Below, piece after piece: positions 4,564-24,600 of a stretch of DNA of 64,000 nt. Origin of the DNA: Termitidicoccus mucosus (GTDB lineage: Bacteria; Verrucomicrobiota; Verrucomicrobiia; Opitutales; Opitutaceae); the NCBI RefSeq assembly GCF_038725785.1, contig NZ_CP109796.1, forward strand, positions 372,001 to 436,000, given 5' to 3'. Both the position numbers and the translations under genes were made by a program. Numbering within the stretch: position 1 is the stretch's first letter; each line of letters begins with the position of its first letter. The notes beneath the pieces are model-generated. The model was not told the DNA's origin and made no database searches. It saw only the letters and a program-made list of their open reading frames with translations.

Positions 4564-7005
4564 TTAGAATGTATAATTCACACCAAAACGGAGGCCGCGG
4601 GATTCATCGACAACGCAATTATATTCCGATGTGTAGCGGGCCTCGGCGCGCCACTTGCTCGATATGCTATAATCGATGCCGGCGTCGAGGCGATAGCCGT
4701 TGGCGTTGGTGGCGGGAGCGGCGATGTCGATGCGTCCGCCGAAAAGATTGGCGCTGAGCGTGCGGATGTCGCTTTCGAATTCATGCAGCAATGCGAAATG
4801 GACAAACGGGCGGATGAAGCCATGTTTTGTCTTGAAACTGCGCGCCACGCGCAGGCCCAGTTTGCCCTGGAGCGAGGTTTCGTTTTGTTCGTAAACATAC
4901 AGACTGGCCTCGTTGGCGTTGCGCTCCGTGAACGCGTCAACTTTCCAATTCAACCATTGAACACCGGCCACAGGGGTGACTTCAAACCACGAAAACTTCT
5001 TTGTATAGGCGAGCGACGCCGCGGCGCCGATGCGGGTGCCGCTTGCATCCGCATCCGCCCATGAGGCAAGCTGGGTCAGCGCCACCGTGCGTTCGGAGTC
5101 ATAATCATCCGTGCCGTAAAAGCCGGTGAGATTAAACTGAAAATTGCCGGCGTTATAACGTGCCTTGATCCCGAATGTGTGACTGCTCACGTCGCAGTTG
5201 CCGCCCGCGGTATCGAGATCGAAATCGGATATTTCATAGGTGTAAAATCCGCCAGCCACGAAATTTTCCCCGAAAGCATAGTCGGCCCCCACAAGTGCGG
5301 CGATAGTGCCGTAGTCTGAATACGAGGCATCGTCATTCTTGTCGCGCGAGGCTTCCTGCCGATAGCCGTCAAGGAAGAGCTGCACGGAGCCTTTTTTGCG
5401 CGCGTAGGCGGCGTCCTGCCACATGCGGTCCTCAATGCTTTGCATCATTGCGTTGGCGCGAACCACGGATGCCGGGAACCAAGACTGATAAGTGCTGGGA
5501 CTGAGCTGATCGAGCAACTCGCGATAAAGAATCATGGAAGGCTGGCGGTTAAGCGCATCAAAAAGATTGTCGCGAACCGTGCCCGCGTTGACGATCTCAT
5601 CGACACGCCGGGCAACCGTGAGATATTTGCCGTCCAATCCCTCGGGGCTAGAAAAAGGCATTTGCGCAAAGGACACCTCAAGGGTGTTTGCATTCCATTG
5701 CCAAGAGGACACCAGCGACATGCTTGGCGGAAGCGCAATGTGACCCGGCTCAAAATCGCCCGAACGCGCGCCGTTGACCGTCATCAATGTGTATGTGCCC
5801 GGCAGGTAAGGGAAGGTCGATGCGCGACCGATTGTCAGATTGGGAATATTGGTTGCATCAACAGGCGAGATAATCAAATCACCGTTGATAACAAGTCGGT
5901 CATATTCGAGCGGCGTGACCAAATCGAAGCTCAAGTTTCCGTTCAGAGTGACGGTGCCGGTGATGGTCAGGGGTTTATCGGTGGCCGTGGCCCTCATGCC
6001 GGGATTAAGGTTCCCGCCCCTGCTTACGATCACATTGCCTTTTATATTTCCGCTGCCACCAAGCATTGCGTTTTCCTGCACATTGATGTTTCCGCTATGA
6101 AGACCGTCGACGATATATTGGGAATTGCCGCCCCTAGGCCGGAAAACCAACCCCTTGGTGCTCACCATGCCGTCCATGATGACTATGCCACCTCCCATAA
6201 TGTCAAATGTCCGTGCCGATACACCTTCGGAAAATAACAATCCCGACCATCTGACAATTTCGCCAGCGGCAATCCGGTCGTTTATGCGCACGTTAAAGGT
6301 GCCCAAATTGACGACAGTGCCCACCTCGGTGCTGAGCCCGCCAATCTGCAAAGTGCCTGCGGCGTGAGAGCCGCTGGTGGTGACAAAGGGAATCATCCCG
6401 GCATTGGCCAGATTCATCTCCGAATTCCCCTTCATCGTGATCACCGCCTGGCTCAGGCCGCTCTCCAACACGCGCATTGATGAATACGAATCGTCGAGCG
6501 TCAGGCGGGAGTAGGAGTTAAGCGTGACATTCATGGCAAGACGGACAGAACTGCCTCCGGTCGATTCCGGAGCGGTTATATCCAGTGAGGTGCCGAAGCT
6601 ATTGCCGATGAAGCCGTTGAATGTGAACCCCTTCCCCGTGGGATTAAGCTCCATCCAGCCATCCTCCGTGCCTTCGAGGTTGAGCGTGTAAAGACGCATC
6701 ATGCCTGTCTGGATGCTGTAAAGTTGCACGCGCTTGTCACCGGTGCCCGTGTTGACGAGGTTGATGGTCTTGTTCGAGATATCAGAAGAGCCAAGCAGGC
6801 GGACGGCGGCCGTGGGGCCGTCAGGAACGACGCCGGTGCTCCAATTCCCGGAATTGAACCAATCGGAATTCACGGCACCGGTCCAGTCCGTGAAATGGTC
6901 GGGCACCAGTGTCAGTTGCGCATTCAATGTTGCCGCAAGGCATGTGATGCCAGAGGCTAGGACAGTCGCCGCGCGCAGGAGGGAATGCTTTTTTGTGATT
7001 TTCAT
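4564..7005 (-). CDS. Autotransporter (type Va-like) outer membrane protein
   Basis: 813 residues with three parts. A signal peptide covers about 1-29 (VLASGITCLAATLNA). A beta-helix passenger covers about 30-500 and opens with the module signature DWTGAVNSDWFNSGNWSTG also seen in the two giant proteins of this locus. A C-terminal 12-strand autotransporter barrel covers about 535-813 and ends LRFGVNYTF with the terminal aromatic expected for Bam-dependent insertion. Alternating aromatic/polar strands are evident (FVAGGFYTYEISDFDL, RAEARYTSEYN). It sits between the TonB receptor ORF and the degenerate gluzincin gene in one minus-strand operon, which points to a surface role in holding or processing pectin. 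Ligand unknown. Confidence 0.85.
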   Translation of the reverse strand: MKITKKHSLLRAATVLASGITCLAATLNAQLTLVPDHFTDWTGAVNSDWFNSGNWSTGVVPDGPTAAVRLLGSSDISNKTINLVNTGTGDKRVQLYSIQTGMMRLYTLNLEGTEDGWMELNPTGKGFTFNGFIGNSFGTSLDITAPESTGGSSVRLAMNVTLNSYSRLTLDDSYSSMRVLESGLSQAVITMKGNSEMNLANAGMIPFVTTSGSHAAGTLQIGGLSTEVGTVVNLGTFNVRINDRIAAGEIVRWSGLLFSEGVSARTFDIMGGGIVIMDGMVSTKGLVFRPRGGNSQYIVDGLHSGNINVQENAMLGGSGNIKGNVIVSRGGNLNPGMRATATDKPLTITGTVTLNGNLSFDLVTPLEYDRLVINGDLIISPVDATNIPNLTIGRASTFPYLPGTYTLMTVNGARSGDFEPGHIALPPSMSLVSSWQWNANTLEVSFAQMPFSSPEGLDGKYLTVARRVDEIVNAGTVRDNLFDALNRQPSMILYRELLDQLSPSTYQSWFPASVVRANAMMQSIEDRMWQDAAYARKKGSVQLFLDGYRQEASRDKNDDASYSDYGTIAALVGADYAFGENFVAGGFYTYEISDFDLDTAGGNCDVSSHTFGIKARYNAGNFQFNLTGFYGTDDYDSERTVALTQLASWADADASGTRIGAAASLAYTKKFSWFEVTPVAGVQWLNWKVDAFTERNANEASLYVYEQNETSLQGKLGLRVARSFKTKHGFIRPFVHFALLHEFESDIRTLSANLFGGRIDIAAPATNANGYRLDAGIDYSISSKWRAEARYTSEYNCVVDESRGLRFGVNYTF

Positions 7006-7062: not shown

Positions 7063-10000
7063 TTAGAAGTTGGCCTCCAGCCCGACATTCATAACCATGC
7101 CGGAGGTGAAATAGCCGCCCGTGCGGTCGAATATGCTGCGCTCGTCGCCGACTTCGGTCACATTCCGCCAGTCAAACATGGCTTTCCAGCGCGAATTTAT
7201 CTTGTAGGCGAGGCTCAGGTCGAAGCGCGTGTAAGCGGACTGATACTTGACCTCGACGTAGGTCAGATTGATATCGCGGGCAAACCGGTCAACCCAATAG
7301 GCGGCGATTTTGCCGCTGAACCGCTTCCCGTTATATCGGAGCTGGAGGGTGGCCGATTTTTTCTGAATCCCGGTCATGGGGATTTCCTCGCGCACCATAG
7401 GGCTGTTGATGTATTCATCCAGCATCGCCTGCGTCACATTTTTCTCCGGCCTGGGTATGGTATGGCGCATGTAGTGGGTTTTCGGGTCGGCATAGGAAAA
7501 CGAACCATAGACGCTGAAATTTTTCAGCCAGTCGGCAAGGAACCCGAGCCTTTGATTGTAAACAATCTCAAATCCCCGGTTCGTCCCCTCGCCGAGGTTC
7601 AGCGGGCTTTGCACAATCCAAGTGCCCTCCTCATACTCCGGATCGTATATATAGTTCACGCCGTCGGCAAGGGCCTCATCCCATGTAACATTGATGAACG
7701 AGGTTTCCGTCTGTATTATATCCTTGAATTGCTGATAGAAGAGGGAAAACGTGAGCGAGCCGTTTTTGCTGAAATAATACTCCACGGCGAAATCATACTT
7801 GGTCGCGTATTGAGGCTTCAGGTCGGGGTTGTTGCGCTCGATCCTGAGCTCGGATGAAATCCATCGCTCCTTGGGGATCACGTTGCCGAACTTGGGCCGC
7901 CCGATGCTTTCGGTGCGCGCGAGACGCACATTCATGTTTTTCAGGGGCTCCCACTTGAACTGGATGTTCGGGAAAACGTTGTCATACGTTTTTTCAAAGG
8001 TCTGCCATGAGTATAGAAGCAGGTTTTTCTGCTCGCGATTGATATTATAGTAGGGATTGGGGTCCAGCGTGCCGGGTATGTAGGGGGAGATGGTGTCATA
8101 CTTGCCGTTCTGCCCGAAGACCGCGTCATTGCTTCCCGGTTCCTCGTATATGGGGCCGGTGCCGATTGCCTGGGTGCGCTCGTAGCGCACGCCCGCGATC
8201 ATGGTGAGGTTGCGCAGCAACCGCGCCGTCAGCTGGGCGTAGCCCGCGGCCGTCTTTTCCGTGGCTGTCTTCTCGCCTTGCAACTGCTGGTAAAAGTGGC
8301 CCTTGACATCATCGGAATCGTCGTAGAACTCGCCCGGATGCGCGTTGAAATAGTCATAGACGTAGTAGGGATTCACCCAGTTCGGAATCGGCACGTCGAA
8401 GCCCCAGGAGTTCTGGAAGTAGGGATCGGCAAATTGATAGATGGCTGGCTCGGCGGCGGTGCCAAAATTCTTAAGCGTGCTGTTTCCGGTCAGTGACCGC
8501 CTGCGCCAATATTGATGCATTTCACGCGTCATCTCACCATAGCGCCCGCCAAACTTGAACTCGACCGGCACGCCGAGGACGACGGGGATGGTGACATCGA
8601 GATTCGCGCCCCTTTGCTCATCGGTGCCATAGCCAAATCGCTGCGACAATGTCAGGCTGTTGTAGTTTTCGAGGTTCAAATAGCTGCCCGTGTCGTCCGG
8701 GGCCATTATGCCCGTGCCCCCGTGGGTGGTCTGGACAATCTCCCCGGTGGCATTCCCGGCAATGTTGAGCGCGTTCAGGCCCACCCCGGACATACTATAC
8801 TCTATGCTGAAGTTTTTGCCGGGATCGGGGTCTGTCTCCGCCTTGCTGTAGTGGGCGCCCCAGTTGACTTTTATTTTCCCGAAGGTGTGCCTGGCCCCGG
8901 CATTAAAGGACACGGTGTTATTGTCCGCCGTGCTTATGCCGTAATTCATTCCAATCCTTGCGCCCTCCGGCGAGATCATGTTGTAAAGGTTTGCCTCGGC
9001 TGTCTGCTGGCCCGCGGTCACTTGCATTCTCCGGGTGTAGGCGCCCAGGCCTTTGACGTCGTTATAGGAAGAGTTTAGGAAGAAAACCGTGTTTTGCCAG
9101 GGTTGGTATTCCAAGTTGAGGGAAACCATCCGGGTTTGCTCACTTTTGCCGCTTTCAGTGTATCGCAGTTCGGTAACATAGCCGGGCGTGGTGGGCGTGA
9201 CCTTGTAGCCCGTTTTTTCGAGGTCAGCCAAATCGTAGGTGTATCTCGGTATTTCGTATCTGTTGTTGAAACGATAGTTGCGATTGAAGGCGGTGTTGAA
9301 GGAAAAGCCAAAACGCTGCCTCGTGCCAAAGGCCTCGCCCCATGAGAAGGTGAATCCGGGCCAGATTTTGTAATCGGGGGTGCGCCCGCCGCCGGGCGTC
9401 TTGTCGAAGTCGAGCTCGGCGGTGTTGAGGCTGAGGTTGGCGGCGAAACGCATGCGGCGGCCTTTCTGGCTGAGCGCGCTCTTCGTCTTGATGTTCACCG
9501 CGCCGCCCATGCTGCTTGCGGAGTCCTCCGCCGTCGGCGCGGTCTTCAACTCGATGCTTTCGATGTTTTGCAGCGATTGTGTGCTCAAATTGAATGCGCG
9601 GCTGGCGGTGCCGACGCCCGATTCGTCGCTGCTGATGGACATGGACGCGACCGCGTTGCCGTCGAGGGTGACGTTGGCAAACTCAGGGTCCATGCCACGA
9701 ATGCGCATCGAGCCGGCGTCCTCACCGTCGTAGTCGATGGTGATACCGGGCAGGTTTTTCATGAGTTCGCCCATGTTGCTGTCCACGATATTGCCGAAGG
9801 AGTCGGCGGCAAAAACCGCCTTCTGGCTGGCGGACATGCGCTGCTCCTGCGTGGCGAGCGCCGCGCCCTCGCGGTCGCCAGCCACCACGAACCTTTCGAG
9901 CTGGTAAACCTGCGTGGTGAGATTGAAATCGGCCGTCGCAGTCTGGCCGGCGACAACCGCCACGACTTGGCTGTTCCGGTCGAGATCGGTGTAACTGGCG

Positions 10001-13000
10001 GTGACACGCACTGTGCCGGCGGGCGCGTCAAAGAAGCGGTAATTGCCATCGCCATCAGTGAGCGTTTCGAGTCTGGTTCCCTCAATTGTGACGAGAGCGT
10101 TGGCGAGGTATTTTCCGGTGCCTTGGTTCATGACACGGCCCGAGATGGCTCCGGTGGCTGACTGCTGAGAAAAAACCAGGGGATTGAACGGCTGAAGGGC
10201 TGAAAGACAGAGCGCGAAGATGAGCATGGCGAGGGCGGAGCGCCGAGCTGCACGCGGCGGTTTTGGCAAAACCGCCCTACTCATCCGCCGCAGCAATACC
10301 AGCAGCGCCAGCGCGGGCAGATACCAGATGCCGGGCGCGCCGCCGCCACTGCCGCCACCGTTGCCCGAGGGCGTTGTCGGGCTGGCGCCAGTGACGGAGA
10401 GCAGCGCATCGCCGGTCTGGACGGCGCCCATGGGATTGCTGACAGTGACGTTGTAATTGGCCACGTCGGTGAGCTGAACCGAATCGATGACGAGCGCTGC
10501 AGTGGTTCCGCCAGTGATCAGCCTGCCGTCCCTATACCATTGATAGGCGGGCATCGGAGCGCCGATGGCGGCGACATTGAAGGTCGCGCTGGTGTTGACC
10601 GGAACGGACTGCGCCACCGGGGACACCAAGATGGAGGGGGCGGCTTGCAGAGCGCAGATCGTGTGGTTGCCGGTGTCGGGCACGTAAATGTCGCCCGTGG
10701 AATCGATGACAATGCCCGCCGGGGCATTCAGCGCGGTTCCGCCGCCGGGCATCGTGGTGACGGTGCCGTTGATGGTGTCGATTACCCGGATGGCATTGTT
10801 GCCGGTGTCCGCCACATAGATGGCGCCGGAGGCGGCATCCACGGCGAGCGCTTGCGGCATGTTGAAACGCGCGTCGGCATTGGCGCCGTTGTCCGTACCG
10901 GGCGCGTGAGCCAAGCCCGCGACGGTTTCAACGCCGCCTGTGGCGAGCGTGATGGAGCGAATGATGCTGTTGCCCGTGTCGGCGATGTAGAGGTGCGTGG
11001 CGTCCGCGTCGAGCGCGAGGCCCATCGGCATGTCGAAGGTCGCCGCGACGCCCGCGCCGTCGTCGGAGCCTGTCGCACCCGAGCCGGCAATGACGGTCAT
11101 GTCTCCGGTGGTTGTGTTTATCTTGCGGATGCTGTTGTTGCCGGTGTCGGCGACGTAGAGGTTACCGTCGGAATCAATCGCGAGCCCGTGCGGGGCATTG
11201 AGCGCGGGAGCGCCCGTGGTGGCGAGCGCGGTCACGGTCGCAGTGGCGATGTCGATCTTCTCGATGGTGTTTGCGCCGGTGTTGGCAACATAGAGCGTCG
11301 TCCCCGCCGCGTCCACGACGATGGAGGCGGGCGCGTTGAAGCCCGTGGCAAACGTGGAGACGGTGCCGTCGAGGGCGATTTTACGAATGGAGTTGTTGCC
11401 GGTGTCAGCGATGTAGAGGTTGCCGTCCTTGTCCGTGATTCCCGCGCCGGGCGAGGTGAAGCGCGCGTCGGCGCCCGGGCCGTCAACATTGCCTGGCGTA
11501 CCGCTTTCGCCCGCAAGGGAAACGACGGCGGAGGCCCCGCTTATGGCGAAGGAGACGGGCTTGTTGCCGACGCCGGTGACATTGATCGCTATAAGCGCGC
11601 CTTGCTGGACGCCGCTGTAGGCGGGCGTGCCGCTGATGACGCCGGTGACGGTGTCGATAAAAAGGCCCGGGGGCAGGCCGGTGGCGCCGTAGCTGGGAGT
11701 GTTGCCGACGGCGGTAGAATTGCCGCCGGGCACCATATTGGTGGCCTGAATCGTATAACTGAAGGGTTCGCCGACGGCGCCGGTGAGTTGCTCGGGGGCA
11801 TCAATGACAACGGGCGACGGCGGGTTGACGGCAAACGGCGCGACGAGAGTGACAGCACCAGCGGCATTAGCGTAAGTGACCAGCAATGTGCCGGTGCCAA
11901 TCATGTCGAACTGGGCATCGAGGATACCGGTAACGGTGTCCATTGAGAAACTGGTGTCGAAACCGGCGGGTGCGACACTGCCCGTATACGACAGCGGATC
12001 GTTTGTCGCGACAATCTGCCATTTGACCGGCTCGCCCTGAACAGCAACCCAAGGGCTACGATTCGACAACACTCGTATTTCGCTAAACCTCGGTGGGGGC
12101 AGTGACACGACCAGCTCCAGCGGCATCGTGCCGGTGCCGCCGATATTGGAAGCAGACAGGGTAACTGTGCCTGTGCCGACTGTCGTGGGTTTGCCCGAGA
12201 TGACGCCGGTCTTGGTGTTGATCGACAAACCATCGGGCAAATCCGTGGCGTCAAAGCCGGTCGGGTTGTGGTTCGCGGTGATGGTGTAAGCGCCGCTTTG
12301 TTCCACCACCATGACCACACGCGTGCCGCTGGTAATGAGAGGAGCCGGGGGCGGCGTGGCATATACAATCAAGGCCAGCGTGGCGGTGGTCGTGCCGGAG
12401 GAATTGCTGGCGGACAATGCAACCGGATATGTGTCTGCAACGGAAACTGAGCCGCTGATGATGCCGGTGGCAGGATTGAAGGACAGGCCGGCCGGCAAAC
12501 CATCGACGCTGAGAATGGTGGGGGTCGTAGGATCGATGGTGGCCGTGAGCGTGTAGGAGAATGGTTGCCCTGCCAGAGCGTCGGCAATGAGCGCGCTGGT
12601 AATGCGCGGACGTGCTATTGCGCCGCCAGTGATGGTAACCTGGATTTGACTGCCATTAACGATATCAAATGCAGCGGCAACAGCAGGATTTTCGGGATGC
12701 GACCATACGAGCGAGGGCGTGCCCGCGAAAGCGGCTTCCGAGCTGAAGATCGTGTAAACGCCATTCGTGACCGCACCGCCTTCCGCAACCACGGGGCTGA
12801 CCTTGAGCGTGCTGCCAAAAGTGACGGTGCCGCCTTTCACGCGCGGGCCGGACAACTCGCCCGCCTCATCGGTGTCCAGAAGCAATGTCGCTCCATCCGC
12901 ATAGGTGATGGCGGGAGTGATTTCCCCCGAACCGCCAAAACCCGCCGAGCCGGAGACGATGATCGGCTCGGTGCCGGTGTGCTTGCCGGTCATCCGCAAG

Positions 13001-16000
13001 CCGCCGGACTCAACAAAAGTGGTACCGGTGTAACTGAGGGAACCGGAAAGTGTGAGCAGCCCCGTGCCCTCCTTGATCAAGGTCGTTTTGCCCGCGCCAT
13101 TGACAAAGCCGTTTGTGCCAAGGATGGCGCCGGCGAAGGTCGTGCTGAGATTTTTGCGCCCGATCCTGTAGGTGATGAGGCGGTTGCTCTGCCCGCTGCC
13201 AAGCGCGGCCTGAGCGCTGGTGCCGGACAGCGCGCCGATGACCAAGGTGTTGCCGGCAGCAGCCACCTGCGGTTGAATCTCGACCTGGTCCTGGATGGCG
13301 AGGTGAACATCCGCCCAGCCGTTCCAGTTGAACATATTGGGGGCCGAGCCGACAGTCGGCCTCGCGCCGCCCGAACCGGTGAAAATCATATCGCCGCTGA
13401 AACCGCTGAAATCATTGACGAAATTCGAGCGAGCGCTGGCATTGGACAACCCGCGATACCTGAGTTCCAGCGTGCCGGAACCTTTTATCGCGCCCTTGAA
13501 ATCAAAGCGCCGGGGCAGGTTGAAGACGGCGTTGTTTCCGTCGGCGACGGTGAAGTCCGGGAAAATCTGCACCTGGCTGTCCGGATAGGTGAACGTCAGC
13601 GTGCCTCCGGCAAACACAACCGGGCCGATGGCCATCGTGTGCTGGCCCAGCGCCTGGTCGCTTTTGGGATAATCCAGCACAAGGTGTCCTTCCTCGATCG
13701 TGGTGGTGCCGTTCCATCCCTCGTTGAAACTCGAAAACCGCACGGTACCCTGGCCTTTCTTGAGCATCGTCGCCCCGCCCCAAAGCCCGAAGTGAGCGAC
13801 AGGCAGCATGTTCAGCGTGCCGGTGGATATGGCAAAGGTCACGGACTCAGGGTTGACGGTTTCCGGAAGCCCGATGGTGCCGGTGCCGCCGATGGCAAGC
13901 GTCTCATTGGCATCGTTGAAAAGGACTTTGGCACCGTCCTGATATGTGGCAGGCGCGCCCGCACGAAGCCAGTTTTGATCGGTCGTGTTCCACGTGCCGC
14001 TGACAGCGCCGGTCCACACCAGCATGTCCGCGGGGACAGGATCGACGGCGATGATCTCAAGCACAGCCTCGTCGGAACCGTAAACATTGGTCGCCGAAAT
14101 CAGCACGTCGCTGGCGCCTGCCGCAGCAGGAACGCCGGAAATAATCCCGGTCGCGGCGTCGCATGACAATCCGTCAGGCAGCGGGACCGCGCCATAGGAC
14201 ACCGGGCTGTTGTCCGACACGATTTGGTAGCTGAATGGCACGCCGACGGTGCCGGTCACGCGCAAGGAGCTGGTGATTACCGGCGAAAGGGTAGTGACCG
14301 TGATTTCCAGTGTCTTCGTGTCCGAGCCGACGGGATTCACGGCCGTCATGGTGACATTTGCCGTGCCGGCCGTGGTTGGCGTGCCGGAGAGCACATGCGT
14401 CGCATTGTTATAGGACAACCATGCGGGCAGGCCAGACGCGGTGATGCTCGTCGGCTCGCCGCTCGCGGTAATTGTATAGCTGAACAGCGCGCCATCCGCC
14501 GCCTGCGCCATGGTGGCGCTGGTGATGACCGGCAATTCATACGCGCTGATCGCAAGCGTCGCCGTGCCGGTGCCGGCGGCATTGCGAGCGCTCAGGACAA
14601 CAGCGGTCGTTCCGGAGCCCAGAATCGTGCCGCTGACAAGGCCGCTTGCGCTGTCTATCGAAAGGGCTGCCGGCAGCGGGGCTGCGCCGTATTCAAGAAT
14701 CGGCAAATCGCTTGCTCCGATTTGATAATTGAATGGCGCTCCGACGGTGCTGGTGATTGCCAGCGGACCGGAAATCGTAGGCACGTTGACAGGAGCCGGC
14801 GGCGGCTCGATGACAAGCGCAAGCGTCTCCGAATCGGTCCCGCCAAGATTACCGGCCGAAATTGTGATATTGCTTGTCCCTGTGGTGCCATATCCGAGCG
14901 TGCCGGAAATCACCCCGGACGACGTGTTGACACTTAGTCCGTCGGGAAGCGCCGTTGCATTGAAGCTTGTCGGGTTGTTGTCGGCCGTGATTGTGTAAGT
15001 AAACGTCGCGCCTTCCGTTCCTGAGGCCGTCAGCAGGCTGGTGATCACGGGCGCAGGGGGAAGCCCGGCGGTGATTGTCGCGGTGATGGCATCGGCGGTC
15101 TGGTTAAAAGCAGCCGACACCCCGGAACCCGAATACTCCAAAGTGATGGCCGGCGATCCTGTGATGCCGCCCGTCGCATGGAGGAGTGTATATACACCGG
15201 AGATGATACCGTCCCCATCTGCAACGACAGGCGTGACCTTGAGCGTGCTGCCTAGCGTGACGGGACCACCAACTTCAAGGCCGTGCAGGGTGCCGGAGAC
15301 AGACGCGTCAACAAGCAGCGTTGCATCGTCGGCATAGGTGACGCCGGCGCTGGTGATTGTGCCCGAGCCGCCCAACGCGGCTCCGCCTGCGACCGTTACT
15401 TGCGCCGTGTTGGCGAGCTGGCCGGTGACATGCAGGCCGCCCGCCGCCACCGTGGTGGTGCCCGTGTAGGTGTTGACACCAGTGAGCGTAAGCATACCAC
15501 TCCCGACTTTGGTGAGCGCGGCAAGCGGGCCAATGATTGTGCCGTGGAAAGTGGTGTCGAGGTTTCTGGCGCCGATGCTGAAAACGGTGTTGCCCGTGGC
15601 TCCCGCAACTTGAACCGATGAGATGCCGGCATTGTCAACGCTGCTGAGCGCGCCGATATCAAGGGTGCGGGTGGTGTTGGCGGTGGCATCCGAGATCAGT
15701 CCTGCTGTGTCCAGCACCATCGAGGTGTTGATCCAACTGGCACTGGCAAAACCAGTGTTGGCCCGGGCGGTGGCCGAACCGATAAGACGGAGTTCGCCGG
15801 AAAAGCCAGTAAAATTGCCTGAGTTGAAATCGGCCCGGGGTACCGTGTGTGTCACAAGGTTGAGCGTCAATGTGCCAGCCCCCAAGAACGTCGTCCTAGT
15901 TTGGAAAGTGCGAGTCATGTTCATGACCCCATGGGCTCCGTCAGGTATGGTGACGGGCTTGTCGATGCGGAGGACAGAAGTAGCGTTCAGGGAATTTGAG

Positions 16001-16503
16001 AACGCAACAGTGCCGCCGGACAACTGCATGGGCGTGTTGAAAACCCAACTGGAGGCACTGAGATTTCCGTTAATGGCAACAACGCCCCCCTCGACGGAGG
16101 CGGTGCCGGTGAAGGCCGGGATGCCCGTGATGCCGAGCGTGCCGCTGTTTTGTTTCAAGAGTGTCGTGGCCCCCGTGATCATGGGGCCAGCGGCAAAGGC
16201 AAGTTCGCCGGCTTTGTTCACAGTGATGCCGCCGGGTGAGACCGCGGAGGGAATGCTCACGGTGCCGGTGGTCGAGGTGTCGTCAAAAAGCACGGTGTCG
16301 CCATTGGCAAAAGCTGCCGCAGCACCGCCGGGAACGGTGACCCAGTTTTGCGTGGTGGTGTCCCAATTGGCATCCGTCACCCCCGTCCAGACAAGGGAAG
16401 ACTGGGCTTGCACACCGGCTGAAAACAACAGCGTCAGGACAGTTGCAGTGACAAGCGCATGCACCGCAGCGGCAACATTGGGGAATGAGAGGGGGTGGTT
16501 CAT
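7063..16503 (-). CDS. Giant fusion: modular surface protein plus TonB-dependent receptor
   Basis: 3,146 residues from the ATG at 16503, which begins a signal peptide (VTATVLTLLFSAGVQA); an earlier in-frame ATG at 16632 would put untypical sequence in front. Order: strand-repeat beta-helix (about 35-480), He_PIG Ig modules (480-815), second beta-helix (826-1295), more He_PIG modules (1300-1650), NHL repeats with YIADTGNNSIRKI cores (1655-1955), an Ig domain (1955-2038) and a Gly-rich hydrophobic Arg-ending tail (GGGSGGGAPGIWYLPALALL). Without any stop the frame passes a REP-like hairpin and a second signal-peptide-like stretch (SALAMLIFALCLSALQPF) into a complete TonB receptor (2074-3146): carboxypeptidase-regulatory domain (GAISGRVMNQG), plug (GELMKNLPGITIDYDGED) and barrel ending GLEANF. 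The receptor should import rhamnogalacturonan oligomers. A tail that resembles a protein end followed by a second signal sequence suggests two genes merged; an assembly error cannot be excluded. Confidence 0.85.
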   Translation of the reverse strand: MNHPLSFPNVAAAVHALVTATVLTLLFSAGVQAQSSLVWTGVTDANWDTTTQNWVTVPGGAAAAFANGDTVLFDDTSTTGTVSIPSAVSPGGITVNKAGELAFAAGPMITGATTLLKQNSGTLGITGIPAFTGTASVEGGVVAINGNLSASSWVFNTPMQLSGGTVAFSNSLNATSVLRIDKPVTIPDGAHGVMNMTRTFQTRTTFLGAGTLTLNLVTHTVPRADFNSGNFTGFSGELRLIGSATARANTGFASASWINTSMVLDTAGLISDATANTTRTLDIGALSSVDNAGISSVQVAGATGNTVFSIGARNLDTTFHGTIIGPLAALTKVGSGMLTLTGVNTYTGTTTVAAGGLHVTGQLANTAQVTVAGGAALGGSGTITSAGVTYADDATLLVDASVSGTLHGLEVGGPVTLGSTLKVTPVVADGDGIISGVYTLLHATGGITGSPAITLEYSGSGVSAAFNQTADAITATITAGLPPAPVITSLLTASGTEGATFTYTITADNNPTSFNATALPDGLSVNTSSGVISGTLGYGTTGTSNITISAGNLGGTDSETLALVIEPPPAPVNVPTISGPLAITSTVGAPFNYQIGASDLPILEYGAAPLPAALSIDSASGLVSGTILGSGTTAVVLSARNAAGTGTATLAISAYELPVITSATMAQAADGALFSYTITASGEPTSITASGLPAWLSYNNATHVLSGTPTTAGTANVTMTAVNPVGSDTKTLEITVTTLSPVITSSLRVTGTVGVPFSYQIVSDNSPVSYGAVPLPDGLSCDAATGIISGVPAAAGASDVLISATNVYGSDEAVLEIIAVDPVPADMLVWTGAVSGTWNTTDQNWLRAGAPATYQDGAKVLFNDANETLAIGGTGTIGLPETVNPESVTFAISTGTLNMLPVAHFGLWGGATMLKKGQGTVRFSSFNEGWNGTTTIEEGHLVLDYPKSDQALGQHTMAIGPVVFAGGTLTFTYPDSQVQIFPDFTVADGNNAVFNLPRRFDFKGAIKGSGTLELRYRGLSNASARSNFVNDFSGFSGDMIFTGSGGARPTVGSAPNMFNWNGWADVHLAIQDQVEIQPQVAAAGNTLVIGALSGTSAQAALGSGQSNRLITYRIGRKNLSTTFAGAILGTNGFVNGAGKTTLIKEGTGLLTLSGSLSYTGTTFVESGGLRMTGKHTGTEPIIVSGSAGFGGSGEITPAITYADGATLLLDTDEAGELSGPRVKGGTVTFGSTLKVSPVVAEGGAVTNGVYTIFSSEAAFAGTPSLVWSHPENPAVAAAFDIVNGSQIQVTITGGAIARPRITSALIADALAGQPFSYTLTATIDPTTPTILSVDGLPAGLSFNPATGIISGSVSVADTYPVALSASNSSGTTTATLALIVYATPPPAPLITSGTRVVMVVEQSGAYTITANHNPTGFDATDLPDGLSINTKTGVISGKPTTVGTGTVTLSASNIGGTGTMPLELVVSLPPPRFSEIRVLSNRSPWVAVQGEPVKWQIVATNDPLSYTGSVAPAGFDTSFSMDTVTGILDAQFDMIGTGTLLVTYANAAGAVTLVAPFAVNPPSPVVIDAPEQLTGAVGEPFSYTIQATNMVPGGNSTAVGNTPSYGATGLPPGLFIDTVTGVISGTPAYSGVQQGALIAINVTGVGNKPVSFAISGASAVVSLAGESGTPGNVDGPGADARFTSPGAGITDKDGNLYIADTGNNSIRKIALDGTVSTFATGFNAPASIVVDAAGTTLYVANTGANTIEKIDIATATVTALATTGAPALNAPHGLAIDSDGNLYVADTGNNSIRKINTTTGDMTVIAGSGATGSDDGAGVAATFDMPMGLALDADATHLYIADTGNSIIRSITLATGGVETVAGLAHAPGTDNGANADARFNMPQALAVDAASGAIYVADTGNNAIRVIDTINGTVTTMPGGGTALNAPAGIVIDSTGDIYVPDTGNHTICALQAAPSILVSPVAQSVPVNTSATFNVAAIGAPMPAYQWYRDGRLITGGTTAALVIDSVQLTDVANYNVTVSNPMGAVQTGDALLSVTGASPTTPSGNGGGSGGGAPGIWYLPALALLVLLRRMSRAVLPKPPRAARRSALAMLIFALCLSALQPFNPLVFSQQSATGAISGRVMNQGTGKYLANALVTIEGTRLETLTDGDGNYRFFDAPAGTVRVTASYTDLDRNSQVVAVVAGQTATADFNLTTQVYQLERFVVAGDREGAALATQEQRMSASQKAVFAADSFGNIVDSNMGELMKNLPGITIDYDGEDAGSMRIRGMDPEFANVTLDGNAVASMSISSDESGVGTASRAFNLSTQSLQNIESIELKTAPTAEDSASSMGGAVNIKTKSALSQKGRRMRFAANLSLNTAELDFDKTPGGGRTPDYKIWPGFTFSWGEAFGTRQRFGFSFNTAFNRNYRFNNRYEIPRYTYDLADLEKTGYKVTPTTPGYVTELRYTESGKSEQTRMVSLNLEYQPWQNTVFFLNSSYNDVKGLGAYTRRMQVTAGQQTAEANLYNMISPEGARIGMNYGISTADNNTVSFNAGARHTFGKIKVNWGAHYSKAETDPDPGKNFSIEYSMSGVGLNALNIAGNATGEIVQTTHGGTGIMAPDDTGSYLNLENYNSLTLSQRFGYGTDEQRGANLDVTIPVVLGVPVEFKFGGRYGEMTREMHQYWRRRSLTGNSTLKNFGTAAEPAIYQFADPYFQNSWGFDVPIPNWVNPYYVYDYFNAHPGEFYDDSDDVKGHFYQQLQGEKTATEKTAAGYAQLTARLLRNLTMIAGVRYERTQAIGTGPIYEEPGSNDAVFGQNGKYDTISPYIPGTLDPNPYYNINREQKNLLLYSWQTFEKTYDNVFPNIQFKWEPLKNMNVRLARTESIGRPKFGNVIPKERWISSELRIERNNPDLKPQYATKYDFAVEYYFSKNGSLTFSLFYQQFKDIIQTETSFINVTWDEALADGVNYIYDPEYEEGTWIVQSPLNLGEGTNRGFEIVYNQRLGFLADWLKNFSVYGSFSYADPKTHYMRHTIPRPEKNVTQAMLDEYINSPMVREEIPMTGIQKKSATLQLRYNGKRFSGKIAAYWVDRFARDINLTYVEVKYQSAYTRFDLSLAYKINSRWKAMFDWRNVTEVGDERSIFDRTGGYFTSGMVMNVGLEANF
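10231..10280. repeat. REP-like hairpin lying in-frame inside the fusion ORF
   Basis: A palindrome with arms GGCGGTTTT (10256-10264) and AAAACCGCC (10268-10276) around a GGC loop is bounded by GAGGGCGG on the left and CCGCCCTAC on the right. Read on the minus strand it begins GTAGGGCGG, like the intergenic hairpins at 2321 and 43352. Here it is translated as part of the bridge SRAVLPKPPRAARRSALA between the hydrophobic tail of the surface protein and the signal-like segment of the TonB receptor. Confidence 0.7.
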
Positions 16504-16620: not shown

Positions 16621-16687
16621 ATAACAAAACACCTATGACTTTCGCATCACCAAATCATGTGATTTTGGGGTCACCAATTCTGGTGAT
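16621..16687 (-). promoter_or_regulatory. Activator-type promoter of the TonB receptor operon
   Basis: Read on the minus strand: a second palindrome GTCACCA-ATTC-TGGTGAT (16670-16687), the main palindrome ATCACCA-AATC-ATGTGAT (16646-16663), exactly 19 nt, then a TGTTAT -10 box (16621-16626). The palindrome centre falls near -41, the class II activator position, and no separate -35 is visible. The two palindrome centres are 24 bp apart, about two helical turns. Transcription would start near 16614, leaving a leader of about 110 nt before the ATG at 16503. Confidence 0.8.
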
Positions 16688-16693
16688 ATGTCA

Positions 16694-18916
16694 TCAAATG
16701 TTCCTCATGCTCTCTCTTGTGCGCGCTGGATTGCCGCTTCCCGGCTTTTTCTGCAAAAAGTCACGCAGTTTGCAGAGTTCGATGCCGGCGAGAAGGACGA
16801 TGCCGATGCCGTGCGTGTCGTTCAGGTTCCAGAGGAGATCGCGTTTGTAATACTCCGACTGGAATGAAAACTCCGAACCGCGGCAGACGCCGTGGACGTT
16901 GCCGAGCTTATCGACCGAGATTTTGCAAATCGCCTCCCATGCCTTGTAGGCCGAGTGGATGTAGGGCGCCGGGTCACGATACCAGCCGTTTTGCACGCCG
17001 CGCGAGAAGCCGTAGGCGAACATTGCGGTGCACGAGGTCTCGGGATACGAATCGTGCTCGTTCACGACTTGGTGGAAGATGCCGTCGGCATCCTGCTGGA
17101 CGAGGATGCCGGCGCTGAACTCGCGGAAGAAATCGAGCAACTGCGGGCGCAGTTCGTGTTTTTCTGGGAGCACGGCGAGGAGTTCCGAGAGCGAGAAGAG
17201 CACCCAGCCGTTGCCGCGGCCCCAAGGAACACCGGTGGCCTTGTCGCGCATGAAGTCATAGACGTGTGACATGAGGCGCTGGTGCGGGATGTAGAGGCGC
17301 TTCTTGAAGCCGATAAACTGGCGCGCGGCATCGTCGATGTATTTCTGGTCATTCGTGAGTTGGTAATAACGCACGAGGAATGGCACGCTCATGTAGAGAT
17401 CGTCGGCCCACATGGTGCCCTCATGGAAGGAGTGCATGAGGTTTTTACGGAAGAACGTGCCATCGGGCAGGCGGATTTGTTTCGTGCTGATGTGGTCAGC
17501 GACGACGTCGGCGATGCGGCGCCAGCCGTCGAGATCGAAATATTTCACCGCCTCAAGCAACGCCGAGCCGGCCGAGCCGCAATCGTCGAGCGAATCGAGC
17601 GAGGTGAGCAGGTTGTGGACGTTGGTCGCCCCGCCGTATTGCTCGCGATCCCACATGGCGTAGTCGTAGGTGTCGCAACAGAACTGGAAATGGTTCGCGA
17701 CGTAACGGCGCGTCTCCTCGGAGTTGATGCGCGCGCCGGCGTGCAGGAGCCCGTAGAGCGTCACGCCGAGCGGATAGTTCCATTTGCCGTAAAGCGTGTT
17801 GTCATTGTAGGGACGCACCCATGTATCCGGTTCGTCAATACGCCAGTAAATCGACCCGCCCGAGGCGGATTTGTGGAGCTTGTTGAGGCTGGTGAGCGCG
17901 TCGAGGTCAAGCCTGTCCTCAGCAACGATGGGGCCAAGGTAAATCCACTTTGCGTCGCTGCCCGCCAAGTTGGCCGGATTGATGAGGGCGAGTTTTTCAG
18001 CGCCGTGCGAGAGCGTGAGTTCGAAGCCCCAGTCGCCCCCGCTGCATTCGGCACGGACGATGACATCGTGGATGCCGAAGGGGATGCTGATCCTGGCGTT
18101 GATGGGGCCGGCTTTCGCGGTGGCGTAAACGACTTCGCTGTTGATCGTGACGGAGAGTTTTGAGCGGGAGCGACCCTTGAGCGTATAGGCGGCCTTGCCG
18201 GGCATGAGGAATTGCGCACGCGTCCAGCCGATGGCGGCGGTGTTTTTGGTTTTTCCAAAGAGGCGTGCCATCTGCCCGGCGGCGCGCTGCCTGTAGTTCC
18301 ATGCGGTGGAGGGAAGCCAGCCGTCCGTCGGGACGTCCGCGTCCGGCGCACCGGGGATGACGGCGAGTTCGGTGTCGCGCGGCTCCGTGAAAAGCCAGCC
18401 TTCCTGCCCTTCGCGCGCGGGGCCAGGCATGAGGAAGTAGTAAGGATGCTTGCCGAGCCATGTGCCATAAACCGCGCCGAAGCCGCCGAGTGTCTTGCGC
18501 ATGCGGAGTACAAGGTGATTCCAGCCTGCCTTCAGCGGAATGTCGAGCGGGGTGCGTTTGTCGAAATAGCGTTCCTGAAAAATGTTCGAGCGAAAAAACT
18601 GCGCGCCGTTCAGGTAGATGATCGTGGGACTGTGGCAATCGATGTCGAATTTGATGGAGCCATCGGCATCGGCCCAAATTTTTGCCCACGCGTAAACATA
18701 CTGGCCGAGTTTTGCGCTTGGGAAATGCTTGTTGAAATCGGCCTCGTAGCGGTAGTCCTTGCCGCGCAGGATACCCGCACGATTGAAGGCGCGGTAGGTG
18801 CACGGATGCGCCGGATTTTGTCCTATGTAGCGGCGCGCGACCGTTTCGAGGGTTTTCTCGATGTTCATACCCTCGTGGGCGTACATGCTTTGGAAGTTTT
18901 CAAAATAGAATCCCAT
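16694..18916 (-). CDS. Cytoplasmic GH105 unsaturated rhamnogalacturonyl hydrolase with long N-terminal extension
   Basis: 740 residues, no signal peptide. The C-terminal half (about 345-740) is an (alpha/alpha)6 barrel of the GH105 YteR/YesR type: MWADDLYMSVPFL with its acidic pair, PWGRGNGWVLFSLSEL, and YPETSCTAMFAYGFSRG. The family hydrates the unsaturated uronic acid left by pectate or rhamnogalacturonan lyases and so releases rhamnose-containing products. The N-terminal 340 residues are beta-rich (FDIDCHSPTIIYLNGAQFF, WNHLVLRMRKTLGG), resembling the jelly rolls of rhamnosidases; the family is usually about 370 residues, so this is nearly double length. Start at 18916 chosen as the longest frame; internal ATGs at residues 11 and 17 are possible. 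Last gene of the symporter-rhaM operon, consistent with intracellular action on imported disaccharide. Confidence 0.87.
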   Translation of the reverse strand: MGFYFENFQSMYAHEGMNIEKTLETVARRYIGQNPAHPCTYRAFNRAGILRGKDYRYEADFNKHFPSAKLGQYVYAWAKIWADADGSIKFDIDCHSPTIIYLNGAQFFRSNIFQERYFDKRTPLDIPLKAGWNHLVLRMRKTLGGFGAVYGTWLGKHPYYFLMPGPAREGQEGWLFTEPRDTELAVIPGAPDADVPTDGWLPSTAWNYRQRAAGQMARLFGKTKNTAAIGWTRAQFLMPGKAAYTLKGRSRSKLSVTINSEVVYATAKAGPINARISIPFGIHDVIVRAECSGGDWGFELTLSHGAEKLALINPANLAGSDAKWIYLGPIVAEDRLDLDALTSLNKLHKSASGGSIYWRIDEPDTWVRPYNDNTLYGKWNYPLGVTLYGLLHAGARINSEETRRYVANHFQFCCDTYDYAMWDREQYGGATNVHNLLTSLDSLDDCGSAGSALLEAVKYFDLDGWRRIADVVADHISTKQIRLPDGTFFRKNLMHSFHEGTMWADDLYMSVPFLVRYYQLTNDQKYIDDAARQFIGFKKRLYIPHQRLMSHVYDFMRDKATGVPWGRGNGWVLFSLSELLAVLPEKHELRPQLLDFFREFSAGILVQQDADGIFHQVVNEHDSYPETSCTAMFAYGFSRGVQNGWYRDPAPYIHSAYKAWEAICKISVDKLGNVHGVCRGSEFSFQSEYYKRDLLWNLNDTHGIGIVLLAGIELCKLRDFLQKKPGSGNPARTRESMRNI

Positions 18917-19310: not shown

Positions 19311-21395
19311 TTAGCCCGAGGCGAGTTTGAGCAGGGCCACGAAGAGCAGGATGATGGCGCCAGAGCTGGCGCAGCAGGCGATGAAGCCAACGGCATCCTG
19401 CCTGTCCCACTTGCCAAACTCCCACGAGGAATTCTTGCCGAGGAGCTTGGTGTGGTCGAAGCGGCGCGGGTTACGCCGCGTTTCCTCGATGGCTTGTGCC
19501 TCGAGTTCGGGCGTCGCGCCGACGGGTGTCTTCATCTTGCCGTAGAAAAAATCGACCTGCACGGGGTTGCGGTTGCGCGTGAAGAGGCTCACGATGACCA
19601 GCACGAGGAAGGGTAGCAGCGCATCCACGTAGTAGCGGAGGTTTTCACGGTTGCGCGCAGTCATCTTGATCGAGTCAACAATGCCGAGCTTTGTGACCAT
19701 GTAGTTTTCCATCTGGAAACGTCCGCCGCCCCGGAGTGGGCTGTCCGGGTCGTTCTTGTTCACGCGTGTGACGGATTCCCAATAAACCGGGGCAGGCTTG
19801 CCGTCGGGTTCGATGGAGGAAATGGCAAGCGACTGGCTGCCGGTCATCACGGGAATCCACGGCGCGATGACTGGGAACGCGACATTTAGGCCGATGGCGA
19901 GGATGAGCGAAGCCCAAGCGGCCCTCACGGTCACACGGCGCCAGAAAAACATCACCATGATGAGCACGCCGAAGGGCACGTTGACCGTGATGACCATTTG
20001 CACGATGGTCATCATGTTGGTCATGAAGGTCGCGGCAAAAAGGCCGATAAACAGCACGACGCATATTGTGCAGCGCGCGACAAGCACACCGGTCGCCTCG
20101 CTGGCGCCCGGATGGAAGATGCGGAAAATGTTTCGCGTGAACAGCGCAGCAATCGCCATCGCCTTGGCGGCGAGATTGGACATCACACCGGCAATCACGC
20201 CAGCGAGCATCAGGCCGATAAGCCCGGGAATTGATCCGAGAAGTTTTTCGGAAAGGGCGCCCCATACCATGTCGGACTCGGCGAGCGCGTTGGGGCCGGC
20301 AAAAAGCGCGATGGCGATGAGGCCGGCAAATGTCCATAGGATAATCATGAGGCGCTTGCCATAGAGGCCGAGCACGCCCATGCGCGCGGCGATTTCGTTT
20401 TTCGCCGAACCCATGATGTTCATGTTGGGACTAAGCGCGTTCATCTGGATGAGGCTCACGAGCGTGATCGCAAAAATGCTCCATCCGGTGAGCGAGCCGC
20501 CAAAGAGGTCGAACATGCCCTTTGGTATTTTTTGCGACAGTTGCCCCCAGCCACCAATCGCGTAAAGCCCCGTCGGGATGAGCAACACCGAGAACACGAT
20601 GATCAGCGTGCCCTGCAACGCCTCCGCGACCGCCGCCGCCGTCATGCCGCCGAGCACCATGTAAGCGCCGATGACCGCCATGAAGACAATGTAGAAAGCC
20701 CATTTATACAATGCCGGACGGAGCAGAGAAACGTTATTGTATAATTCGCCGCGCGCCTTCAGGTCGCGCAAATCCGCCAGCCGCTGCGCTTGCCCGGGCG
20801 TGAGCGGCGCGACCGCAGCGCTGCCGGTGGCAATGCCCGCATCCACCGCGAACGCAGCCTTCTGCTGCATTTCGAGCGCGCGCATCTCGCGAAACCCCTC
20901 GACTGCTCTACGCTCCTCCACCGTCCATGATGACTCGGGTTTGTTGACCAGCGACGCAGTGATCGTGTAAGCCGTGAAACTCCCGAATCCGATCAACAGC
21001 ACCGCCACGCAAATCTGGAACAGCGAATAAAACACACCCATGTTGCGACTATTGAAACGATCGACAAATAAATCGGCCATCGTGATAAGGCGCACACGGC
21101 GAAACCACACATTCATGAACCAGAAGTAAGGATTGATGAACACCGTCTGGAACGAATACCACGATTGCGGCGCGCCCTTGTCGTAAACGAAACTCGCGTT
21201 GGAAACCGCGCCCTGCGGCTCCGTGGCATTGCCGAAATTGAGGAACGCTTGGTAAAATTTGCCGAGCTTGCGGCCTGCGAGGAAATAGCTCTCCTCGCCC
21301 TTGGATGAGGTCGCCTTGGCGCGTCGACCAATGTAAATAATCACCGCGAAATAGGCGAGGACCACCAAGATGTCTATTAAACGGACGTCATGCAT
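19311..21395 (-). CDS. Sodium:solute symporter (SSS family)
   Basis: 694 residues with about 13 hydrophobic segments, starting with [24 protein letters not shown] and the hallmark SSS segment after it ([16 protein letters not shown]). Na+-driven uptake across the inner membrane is the family role. An unusual soluble insert of about 75 residues (around 150-225, rich in Glu, Arg and Ala, e.g. [20 protein letters not shown]) and a second loop near 510-560 make it longer than the typical 500-600. First gene of the unit with rhaM and GH105, directly behind the palindrome promoter. The cargo is therefore inferred to be unsaturated rhamnogalacturonan disaccharide or rhamnose; specificity cannot be read from the sequence. 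Confidence 0.87.
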
Positions 21396-21674: not shown

Positions 21675-24600
21675 TTATCGGAAAGTGGTGTGCGTTTTTG
21701 CGAGGCTAGCGCCTTGTCCGGCAACCCAGAGATCACTGCTCCGTCGCAAGCATCGCACAAAAACAATCAACGCAAGCGCGAGGAAATACCACAGGGCAGG
21801 CGCGCCTCCTCCACCACCGCCCCCAGCGGTGTTGTTGTTCGAAGGCGGCGTGGTCGTGCCGCTGCTTGTCGCGGTCACGGTGAGTGTGGCGGTGCTGCTT
21901 GTCACCGAGCCCATTTCATTTGAAACGACCACGGTGTAATTGCCCGCGTGCGCGGTTTGCGCGCTGGCAATCGTGTGGGTGTAGCCAGTCGCGCCCGCGA
22001 TGTTCGTGCCGCCGTGCCTCCATTGGTAGGCTGGATTCGGCGCGCCGATGGCGAGGACGCTGAAGCTGGCGGCGGCGCCGGCGGTCACGTTTTTGTTTTC
22101 CGGATGTTTCAGGATGCGCGGGCTGTCCAGAAGGATGCGGATGGTGTGATTGCCGGTGTCGGCGATGTAGATGTCGCCGGTCGTGCTGTCTATGGCGAGG
22201 CCGGCAGGTGCGTTGAGCCGGGCGATCGCACCGAGGCCGTCGGCTGTGCCGCTGGCCGCAATGAGGCCAGAGCGGGTGGTGACCTGATTCGTGAAGGTGT
22301 CGAGGTGGCGGATGGCGTGGTTGCCGGTATCGGCAACGTAGAGATTTCCCGCGGCATCGAGGGCGAGCCCCTTGGGATGATTGAAACGCGCGTCGAGGGC
22401 GTCGCCGTTTGCCGTGCCGCTCACGCCGGGTCGCCCGGCAATGGTAACGACGCTGCCGATGCTGCCGCTGGTGGTGAGATCGATTCGGCGGATGGCGTGA
22501 TTGCCGGTGTCGGCGACGTAGAGTTGTCCGTCGGGGCCGAGGGCGAGTGCGGTGGGGGTGTTGAATCCACCGGCGAGGGTTGTTGAGGTTGTTGCGCCTG
22601 CGGCGAACTTGACGACGATGTTGTCGGCGGTGGAAACGTAGAGATTGCCCGTGGTGTCGCGTGCGAGTCCGGCGGGGCGGTTGATGTCAGTCGCGAAGGT
22701 TGTGAGTTGCGCGGTGGCGAGGTCGAGCGAGCGAATGGCGTTGTTGTTTGTGTCGGCGATGAGGAGCGTCGAGCCGCCGCCAACGATAATTGCACCGGGC
22801 GAGGAGAGTGTGGCTCCGGTTGTAGCGAGCGTGGAAACGATGCCGGGTGGGTCGATGATGCGGAGTGCGTTGTTGCCCGTGTCGGCGATGTAGAGATTGC
22901 CGTTGGCGTGAGCGAGCAACGCGACGGGCGAATTGAATCGCGCGAGCATGGTCTGGCCATTTGTCGCACCGGAGCTTTTTGCGAATCCGGCGAGCGTGAC
23001 GAGCGCAGTGTGCGTATCGGTGTCGCTCGCAGGTGCGATGGTGAGCATGAGTGTGAAATCGGTGGAACCGGTCGCATTGGTCGCACGAAGTCTGACGGCG
23101 TAGGTGCCACTCGCGGTGGGTCTGCCGGAGATGACACCGGTCGTGGTGTTGAACAAGAGTCCGGGCGGCAGGCCGCTGATGGTGTAGGTAGCGGTGCCGT
23201 TTGCGAGTGTCGCGGCGTAAGTAAAATCCGCTCCGGCGCGCGCGGTGTCGTTCGCAGGGCTTGTGAAGACGGGTGCTGTCGCAGGCGGCGCGGTGACGAC
23301 GGTGAGCACGAGCGATTTGCCGGAAATGGTGACGTTGCCGCGCAATTCATTGCCGAGCAAGATCGGCGCAAAATCGGCGGAAGTAAGCGTGGTGGCGTTG
23401 ATTGTGCCGAGTATGTGTGTGGCACCGGCGGTCAGCGCGCCAGCATTGGTGAGGATGATTTGGCGCGCAGCCGAACCGGATTTCAAAAGCGTGCCGGTGA
23501 CGACGAGGCGGTCGCCGTGTGCCACGTCGAATTGCAGTGCGGCGGCGGAATTCCATGTGAGTTTGGCGAACTTCGCAAACGTGCCGGTAACGGCGAGCGT
23601 GCCTTCGTTGATGATGGCGGCTCCGGTGAACGTGTTTGTGCCGGTAAGCGTAAGCGTGCCCGCACCAGTTTTGGTGAAGCCGCCCGTGCCGGAAATCGCG
23701 CCGGTCAACGTAATGCCGGAGGTGGTTTCGATGACGATGTCGCCGGTGAGTACGATGGGGTGCGCGGTTGTCCACGCGGCTTTAGCGCCGAGCGTACCGC
23801 TGGCGAGCGTGATTCGGCTGGTGAGGGTGCTAGCACCGTTTTTCACGATGCCGCCGGAGCCGAGGTGGAGCGCGCCGCCGTCGATGGTGATTGCGGCCGT
23901 GCCAGACGTGACGGTGCTATCGTAGCCAAGCGTGATTTTTTCAAATGTCGCCGTGCCGCCGCTGATGATTGCGATGCCGGGTGTGTTGGCGTTCGAACCG
24001 TTGGCTTTTGAGAGGATGAGGCCATTGGTTGTCTCGGTTGAGACGAGCGAGCCGCCGATGACGCGGAGGCCGCTGGCACGTCCGGGGGAGGTTTGGTTGC
24101 CGACGGTGAATGTGCCAGTGACGAGCACGTTGCCGCCTTCGACGGACATCGCCGCGCTGGAATTGGCGGTGCCAATGCCGACTGTGACGGCATCGACCTC
24201 GCCGCCTCGCACGATGAAGCCGGTGGCGTAATCGATACCTCCGGCGCTGCGGCGGATGTTGATTTCGGTGGCGATAAATGTGCCCCCCGTGACGAGGACG
24301 TAACCGAGGTCGCTGGTGGAGGAGCGGAAGGTCGCCATACGCGCGCAGCCGGCCTCGATTATGAACGCGGAACTCGCGCCGCCGTCCACGCGGCTGGTGG
24401 TTTGGAGGAGACCGCCGTTGACGATGAGGCGCGCGGAGCTGGCGATGCTGAAGGCGCTGCTTCCGATGTTGAGCACGCCGCCTTCGCCGACAGCCAGGTC
24501 ACCAACGCTCACGATGACGCCGCCGGTGAGCGCGTTGGAGCCGGTGAGCGCGAGCATCGAGCCGCCGGTTTTGCTAAAACCCTGTGTGCCGGCGAGCGGA

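Follow-up and report, generated by a model that had tools for sequence, protein, structure and literature searches.

The window is a 64,000-nucleotide stretch of the Termitidicoccus mucosus genome. We observed a single open reading frame on its minus strand at 7063-16503. This frame begins with an ATG at 16503, ends with a stop at 7063-7065, and encodes 3,146 amino acids with zero internal stops; an in-frame GTG at 16632 is an alternative upstream start that would yield 3,189 amino acids. Frame reading, Pfam and NCBIfam resolved the frame into a surface protein, a tail, an internal signal and a TonB-dependent receptor (TBDR), all read on the minus strand. The surface half starts with an N-terminal signal peptide (16405-16503), in which a Gln follows the likely cut site as placed by eye on the translation. 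The remainder of the surface half (10435-16404) contains PATR strand repeats, He_PIG domains, NHL repeats and one Ig domain according to Pfam. No binding or enzyme domain was recognised in this half. A sequence-only reading of this DNA had described one unbroken frame running from a surface protein with strand-repeat, NHL and Ig modules into a TonB receptor, and our analysis confirmed both the frame (3,146 codons) and the modules.

Between the two halves lies GGGSGGGAPGIWYLPALALLVLLRR; a basic linker comes next, and then another hydrophobic stretch, which ends in VFS before Gln-Gln. The Gly-rich, hydrophobic, Arg-ending tail that had been noticed inside the frame was located at 10285-10359 (minus strand). 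Sequence reading and tail-model scoring identified it as GlyGly-CTERM-like, with GGGSGGGAPG, a hydrophobic helix, Arg-Arg and a putative rhombosortase site. This tail is not at the extreme C-terminus: 1,073 residues come after its last Arg (residue 2,073 of 3,146). The basic linker MSRAVLPKPPRAARR (10240-10284, minus strand) is a predicted cytoplasmic loop with 7 basic and 0 acidic residues, the tail RR counted. Palindrome and folding analysis placed an inverted repeat at 10256-10276, which is read in frame and would form an RNA hairpin. The second signal-like stretch, also noted earlier, lies at ~10168-10239 (minus strand) and reads as a putative internal signal peptide cut before Gln-Gln.

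The receptor half (7066-10167, minus strand) was matched by CarboxypepD_reg (9916-10146), Plug (PF07715; 9502-9834) and barrel (PF00593; 7162-8694) domains. It also matched TIGR01782 above the cut-off (320.5 bits, cut-off 310) over positions 1-868 of the 868-position model, in agreement with the earlier description of a complete TonB receptor. On the question of a 22-strand barrel, the AlphaFold2 model of the receptor was strand-rich but of low confidence (mean pLDDT 55). In the PDB, sequence matches to the receptor at 1e-10 covered only the plug region of the colicin I receptor. Neither Pfam nor NCBIfam assigned a protease family to any part of the fused chain.

The fusion is flanked downstream by a gene for an 813-amino-acid autotransporter-barrel protein (4564-7005, minus strand). 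By reading only, similar-looking frames come after several other receptors of the window clade. On the other side, Pfam identified a GH88-family hydrolase adjoining the fusion (16694-18916), a Sodium:solute symporter (19311-21395) and a rhamnogalacturonan lyase of the family 11 type (21675-28175), all on the minus strand, and a sensor kinase with a Reg_prop/Y_Y_Y sensor part (28342-31395, plus strand). The lyase too is a surface protein, and its modules are NHL, PATR, He_PIG and Ig. It bears the same tail as the fusion, but in a terminal position, 21 codons from the stop.

With this sister tail of the lyase as the query, a permissive tail census (E up to 10) of the 7.9-Mb genome gave 54 matches. 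Follow-on analysis covered 53 of them; the remaining match, on C2, was read separately and has a stop directly behind the tail. A stop was found 0-27 codons behind the tail in 45/53 matches. These data show that the tail signal exceeds chance. Of the remaining eight matches, four continue into a receptor without a change of frame. One (L033, C1:1589001) has a frame that runs over a receptor out of frame, and one (L036, C1:111161) continues into a second tail-bearing surface protein. The last two were rejected as untrue tails, C1:1135531 being near a frame start and C1:2724877 in a short frame; C1:4838509, in a 70-amino-acid frame, may be a third untrue tail. A receptor lay within 150 nt of the tail in five matches, in frame in 4/5 and with a frame-shifting 65-nt deletion in the fifth (L033). 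Receptors behind tails were sought with 11 query receptors in 1,500-2,500 nt, and other receptor types could escape this search.

The window tail scored below the cut-off of the GlyGly_CTERM model (13.2 bits, cut-off 15.5). We scored nine of the twelve other internal tails, leaving out L059, L138 and L147. The tails of L039, L107 and L072 passed the GlyGly_CTERM cut-off, the L032 tail passed a MYXO-CTERM cut-off instead (21.3 vs 15.85), and the L031 tail had no family match at all. The tails score close to the GlyGly-CTERM and MYXO-CTERM cut-offs.

Two rhombosortases scored above the curated cut-off in the genome of the window, as did two each in G084, G085, G086 and G087, four other genomes with fusions. 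None scored above the cut-off in 14 control genomes or in G222, which carries one fusion in an assembly that is 68% complete. Both rhombosortases of the window's genome contain GLSG and a later LAH, and we take GLSG and the later His to be the catalytic residues, as in the rhomboid family. One of the two (L073, C1:3590500-3597500) adjoins a frame of 712 residues whose Gly-rich tail is unusual, and the two are perhaps a dedicated pair. A GspD-like secretin was matched over its full length, below the curated cut-off (302 vs 351 bits). GlyGly-CTERM was noted in Opitutus terrae by Haft and colleagues (PMC3237569), and rhombosortase cleaves GlyGly-CTERM proteins, which are then modified and displayed at the surface (PMC6219818). 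In Vibrio, VesB requires the type II system after the rhombosortase cut.

We performed four receptor-sequence searches, blind to fusion, across 252 Opitutaceae genomes, with at most 3 candidates scored per genome. At this depth, the window receptor gave 5/8 matches fused, with frames of 2,823-3,423 amino acids. The L039, L032 and L072 receptors gave 2/5, 2/14 and 3/5 fused matches, respectively. Pooled, 12/32 matches were fused in frame, 4 of the 12 being the queries themselves. Of the other 20, L033 follows a tail in a different frame, 13 show no tail within 1,500 nt of upstream DNA, and 6 have an upstream sequence too short to tell. The upstream-tail pattern detects the tail in 13/13 fused frames. 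Receptors directly behind a tail were in frame in 12/13 cases (8/9 minus queries), with L033 as the exception. The unfused receptor L034, from the same genome as the window, lies outside the window-receptor count. Homologues always encoded as two genes would have refuted the earlier reading; this homologue search found fused ones.

A further fusion, L106, came from a junction-profile search (at most 24 candidates scored per genome), giving at least 13 fusions of surface protein, tail, signal and receptor in six genomes of two Opitutaceae genera. Four are in the genome of the window (the window, L031, L032 and L039) and one is in G222 (L061, whose surface half is cut by a contig end). Two each are in G084 (L107 and L108), G085 (L060 and L072), G086 (L138 and L147) and G087 (L059 and L106). 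Among these genomes, G085 belongs to Ereboglobus sp. PH5-10, and two others, G087 and G222, are metagenome bins of Opitutaceae. A junction search over 387 genomes of the phylum (1e-6, at most 16 candidates scored per genome) returned matches in at least 11 genomes, all Opitutaceae, with none outside this family among the matches listed.

On a tree of 25 receptors, with L148 left out and L033 scored as unfused, the fused label requires at least 5 changes, one of them being L033. The fused state has therefore been gained or lost several times. The L039 and L107 receptors belong to a clade clearly different from the others. Fused receptors within a clade are ~50-68% identical, across two genera.

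We then compared the junctions. The order of tail helix, basic loop and second hydrophobic segment was observed in 12/12 measured junctions, whose loops contain 2-13 basic and 0-4 acidic residues; L147, the thirteenth junction, was read by eye. Two hydrophobic segments separate the halves in 13/13 fusions. At its end, the second segment resembles the signals found in unfused relatives, and by eye Ser or Ala comes before Gln there in 13/13, as expected of a signal-peptidase site. Gln after the likely signal-peptidase cut was also seen in several unfused relatives of the 13 fused receptors, a Q-rule-like pattern. The Q-rule is described as Bacteroidetes-specific in PMC5837995, a text in which the word Verrucomicrobia was not found.

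From these sequences, we suggest with reasonable confidence that the fusion is a bacterial polyprotein in which a surface protein and the TBDR behind it are split by membrane proteases of the cell. We favour this reading because a single frame spans both halves, two hydrophobic segments and a basic loop lie between them, the arrangement is found at 13 loci, and four of these lack a standard receptor start. Gut-type Opitutaceae repeatedly carry both proteins in one uninterrupted gene, with two apparent cutting signals in between, and the single chain is probably processed to an anchored surface protein plus a separate receptor. The first signal would route the surface half through Sec. The GlyGly-CTERM helix would then act as a stop-transfer segment of the inner membrane and keep its Arg cluster on the inner side, and the second hydrophobic stretch, serving as an internal signal peptide, would re-initiate export. 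Signal peptidase I would cut before Gln, releasing the receptor to the BAM machinery, and rhombosortase would cut at the tail, sending the surface half to the cell surface. There it would probably be lipid-linked, as is thought for VesB of Vibrio cholerae. The benefit would be that a surface glycan-handling protein is made in the same amount as its importer. We infer these steps from established topology rules and from the Vibrio work (PMC6219818, PMC11389362, PMC13393428). Points that count against this reading are the below-cut-off scores of the window tail and of the GspD-like secretin, the mixed scores of the other internal tails, the fusion in G222 without a rhombosortase above the cut-off, the broken link in L033, the surface-surface fusions and the possible receptor starts at the junctions.

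The strongest competitor is internal initiation, which we consider unlikely, although it deserves serious weight. Here, ribosomes would restart near the tail and produce two proteins, with the long chain little made or chewed back. The receptor signal looks complete alone, and a possible ATG, GTG or TTG start is present in 9/13 junctions. These include the window junction, where ATG and TTG codons are reachable and the ATG at 10282-10284 would yield a good-looking signal peptide. L072 has GGAGGTG 8 nt ahead of a GTG. That a stop just behind the tail is the rule elsewhere (45/53) also fits separate products. However, no in-frame ATG, GTG or TTG lies between the tail helix and the second segment in 4/13 junctions (L031, L061, L106 and L039). 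Each of these four has an in-frame CTG, a rare start codon, in or just behind the tail helix. The leaders of the junction candidates are not AT-rich (mean AT content 0.33, n=25, vs 0.55, n=16, for ordinary starts), which is weak evidence because the coding sequence is GC-rich anyway. The frame is moreover kept across linkers of several lengths, with the one exception of L033. We also considered the absence of a Shine-Dalgarno sequence as an argument against internal starts and dropped it, since ordinary starts in these genomes lack one as well (4 nt or more in only 1/18).

A second alternative is that the fusions are neutral or decaying: extensions behind the tail would do no harm, stops would be lost for that reason, and fused frames would be transient. 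The longer linkers (the window, L032, L059 and L147) contain palindromes that fold into strong hairpins. These look like intergenic repeats read through in frame, which suggests that the junctions derive from former intergenic spacers. Neither the window's palindrome nor that of L059 turned up again in exact form in the other loci compared. In L059 (8000-8200), a palindromic element of ~150 bp lies inside the junction, in frame and stop-free.

L033 (C1:1583000-1599000 of the window's genome) is a case in which the link was lost. It is 92-94% identical in DNA to L061 (G222) along both halves, and it lacks 65 nt that hold the second signal. This deletion also shifts the frame: the surface frame continues for 209 codons out of frame, and the receptor frame is open but without a signal. 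Outside the junction, both halves have stayed open. In L050, by comparison, an ordinary pair was observed, with a tail, a stop, and a receptor with its own ATG 48 nt on.

Surface proteins can also be joined to each other. L036 (C1:98200-118000 of the window's genome), L110 and L111 each encode two exported surface proteins in one frame (4,041, 1,737 and 3,961 amino acids, respectively), in which an internal tail precedes another signal-like stretch. Because such surface-surface fusions exist, some fusions may reflect mere tolerance of a missing stop. As a general account, neutral fusion nevertheless appears improbable to us: fusions are kept within clades at ~50-68% receptor identity across two genera, receptor frames are open throughout, and dN/dS between L033 and L061 is 0.23 for the receptor (0.46 for the surface half).

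Several other arrangements were observed. The L036 linker reads like a dispersed repeat. Two similar loci of the window's genome, L035 and L037, have receptor-like sequence scattered over several frames. The ends of G084 C1 (L117, first 16 kb; L108, last 30 kb) seem to repeat one locus, one copy with frame differences, and they are probably an untrimmed, error-bearing overlap.

Slightly less probable still is an uncleaved giant receptor, in which the surface half would remain on the TBDR N-terminus. The missing stop and the dN/dS values below 1 in both halves agree with such a chain, but the two hydrophobic segments (13/13) and the basic loop (12 measured junctions) would hold the receptor N-terminus in the inner membrane, and the second segment ends like a signal of unfused relatives. 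The sequence-only reading had left open a receptor permanently bearing 2,000 residues or a self-cleaving pair. The first becomes less likely with two hydrophobic segments separating the halves in every fusion. The second is unsupported, as the chain has no protease-family match and the genome encodes two rhombosortases. Both are less likely than a polyprotein cut by membrane proteases. Assembly or sequencing error can be practically dismissed: a missing stop or an indel can join neighbours, but the 13 cases come from six assemblies, including one isolate and two metagenome bins, and this recurrence at other loci and in other genomes contradicts the frameshift that had been considered.

We also assessed what the polyprotein pairs might handle. 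The window-clade surface halves carry PATR, He_PIG, NHL and Ig modules, the L039 fusion has a pectate-lyase domain in its surface half, and the L032 fusion has LamG-type domains in four stretches. Judged from the domains in L039 and L032 and from the window's neighbours, each fused pair resembles a glycan handler with the matching importer, made from one cistron, by analogy with SusD/SusC. At the window locus, rhamnogalacturonan would be the substrate, given the family-11 lyase, GH88 hydrolase, symporter and sensor kinase nearby. The glycan-handling role of the window's own surface half is a guess drawn from the neighbour genes, since its domains include no recognised binding or enzyme domain. 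A broader proposal is that this is a general strategy, evolved several times, in which a glycan handler and an importer are made as a polyprotein with a tail and an internal signal back to back, cut by two membrane proteases and supplied 1:1. We regard the chances for and against this proposal as evenly balanced.

If the polyprotein reading is true, rhombosortase tails would also occur away from the C-terminus, bacteria would be able to fix the ratio of glycan handler to importer at the level of translation, and some very long frames of this type would conceal two proteins. The junction would also be a clear system for testing how a single substrate is shared by Sec, signal peptidase and rhombosortase. 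The two cutting systems and the two kinds of protein are themselves already known. In the literature searched, mainly titles and abstracts and with most subscription papers outside it, we found no description of a C-terminal sorting tail as an internal junction or of a TonB receptor as the downstream part of a polyprotein.

The fusion resembles the GlyGly-CTERM/rhombosortase system (TIGR03501/TIGR03902) in its Gly-rich motif, hydrophobic helix and basic end, and in a genome with many tails and two rhombosortases. It differs in that the signal known from PMC3237569, PMC6219818, PMC11389362 and PMC13393428 is terminal, whereas here it is internal with a second exported protein behind it. With TIGR01782-type TonB-dependent receptors, the receptor half shares CarboxypepD_reg, Plug, barrel and a full-length match, but here it lies in frame behind a 2,000-residue surface protein. 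The fbcH product of Bradyrhizobium, a cytochrome b/c1 precursor, is reportedly divided at an internal signal sequence by signal peptidase. It is likewise a bacterial precursor with an internal signal, but one of inner-membrane respiratory proteins, and its junction has no sorting tail. In the SusC/SusD polysaccharide loci of Bacteroidetes, a surface glycan handler and a TBDR are encoded near genes for lyases, hydrolases and a sensor kinase; each of the two has its own gene, and SusD is a lipoprotein. The Pfam scan of nine window proteins returned no SusD family. The two systems would have in common a glycan handler paired with a TBDR, encoded by separate genes in Bacteroidetes and in one frame here.
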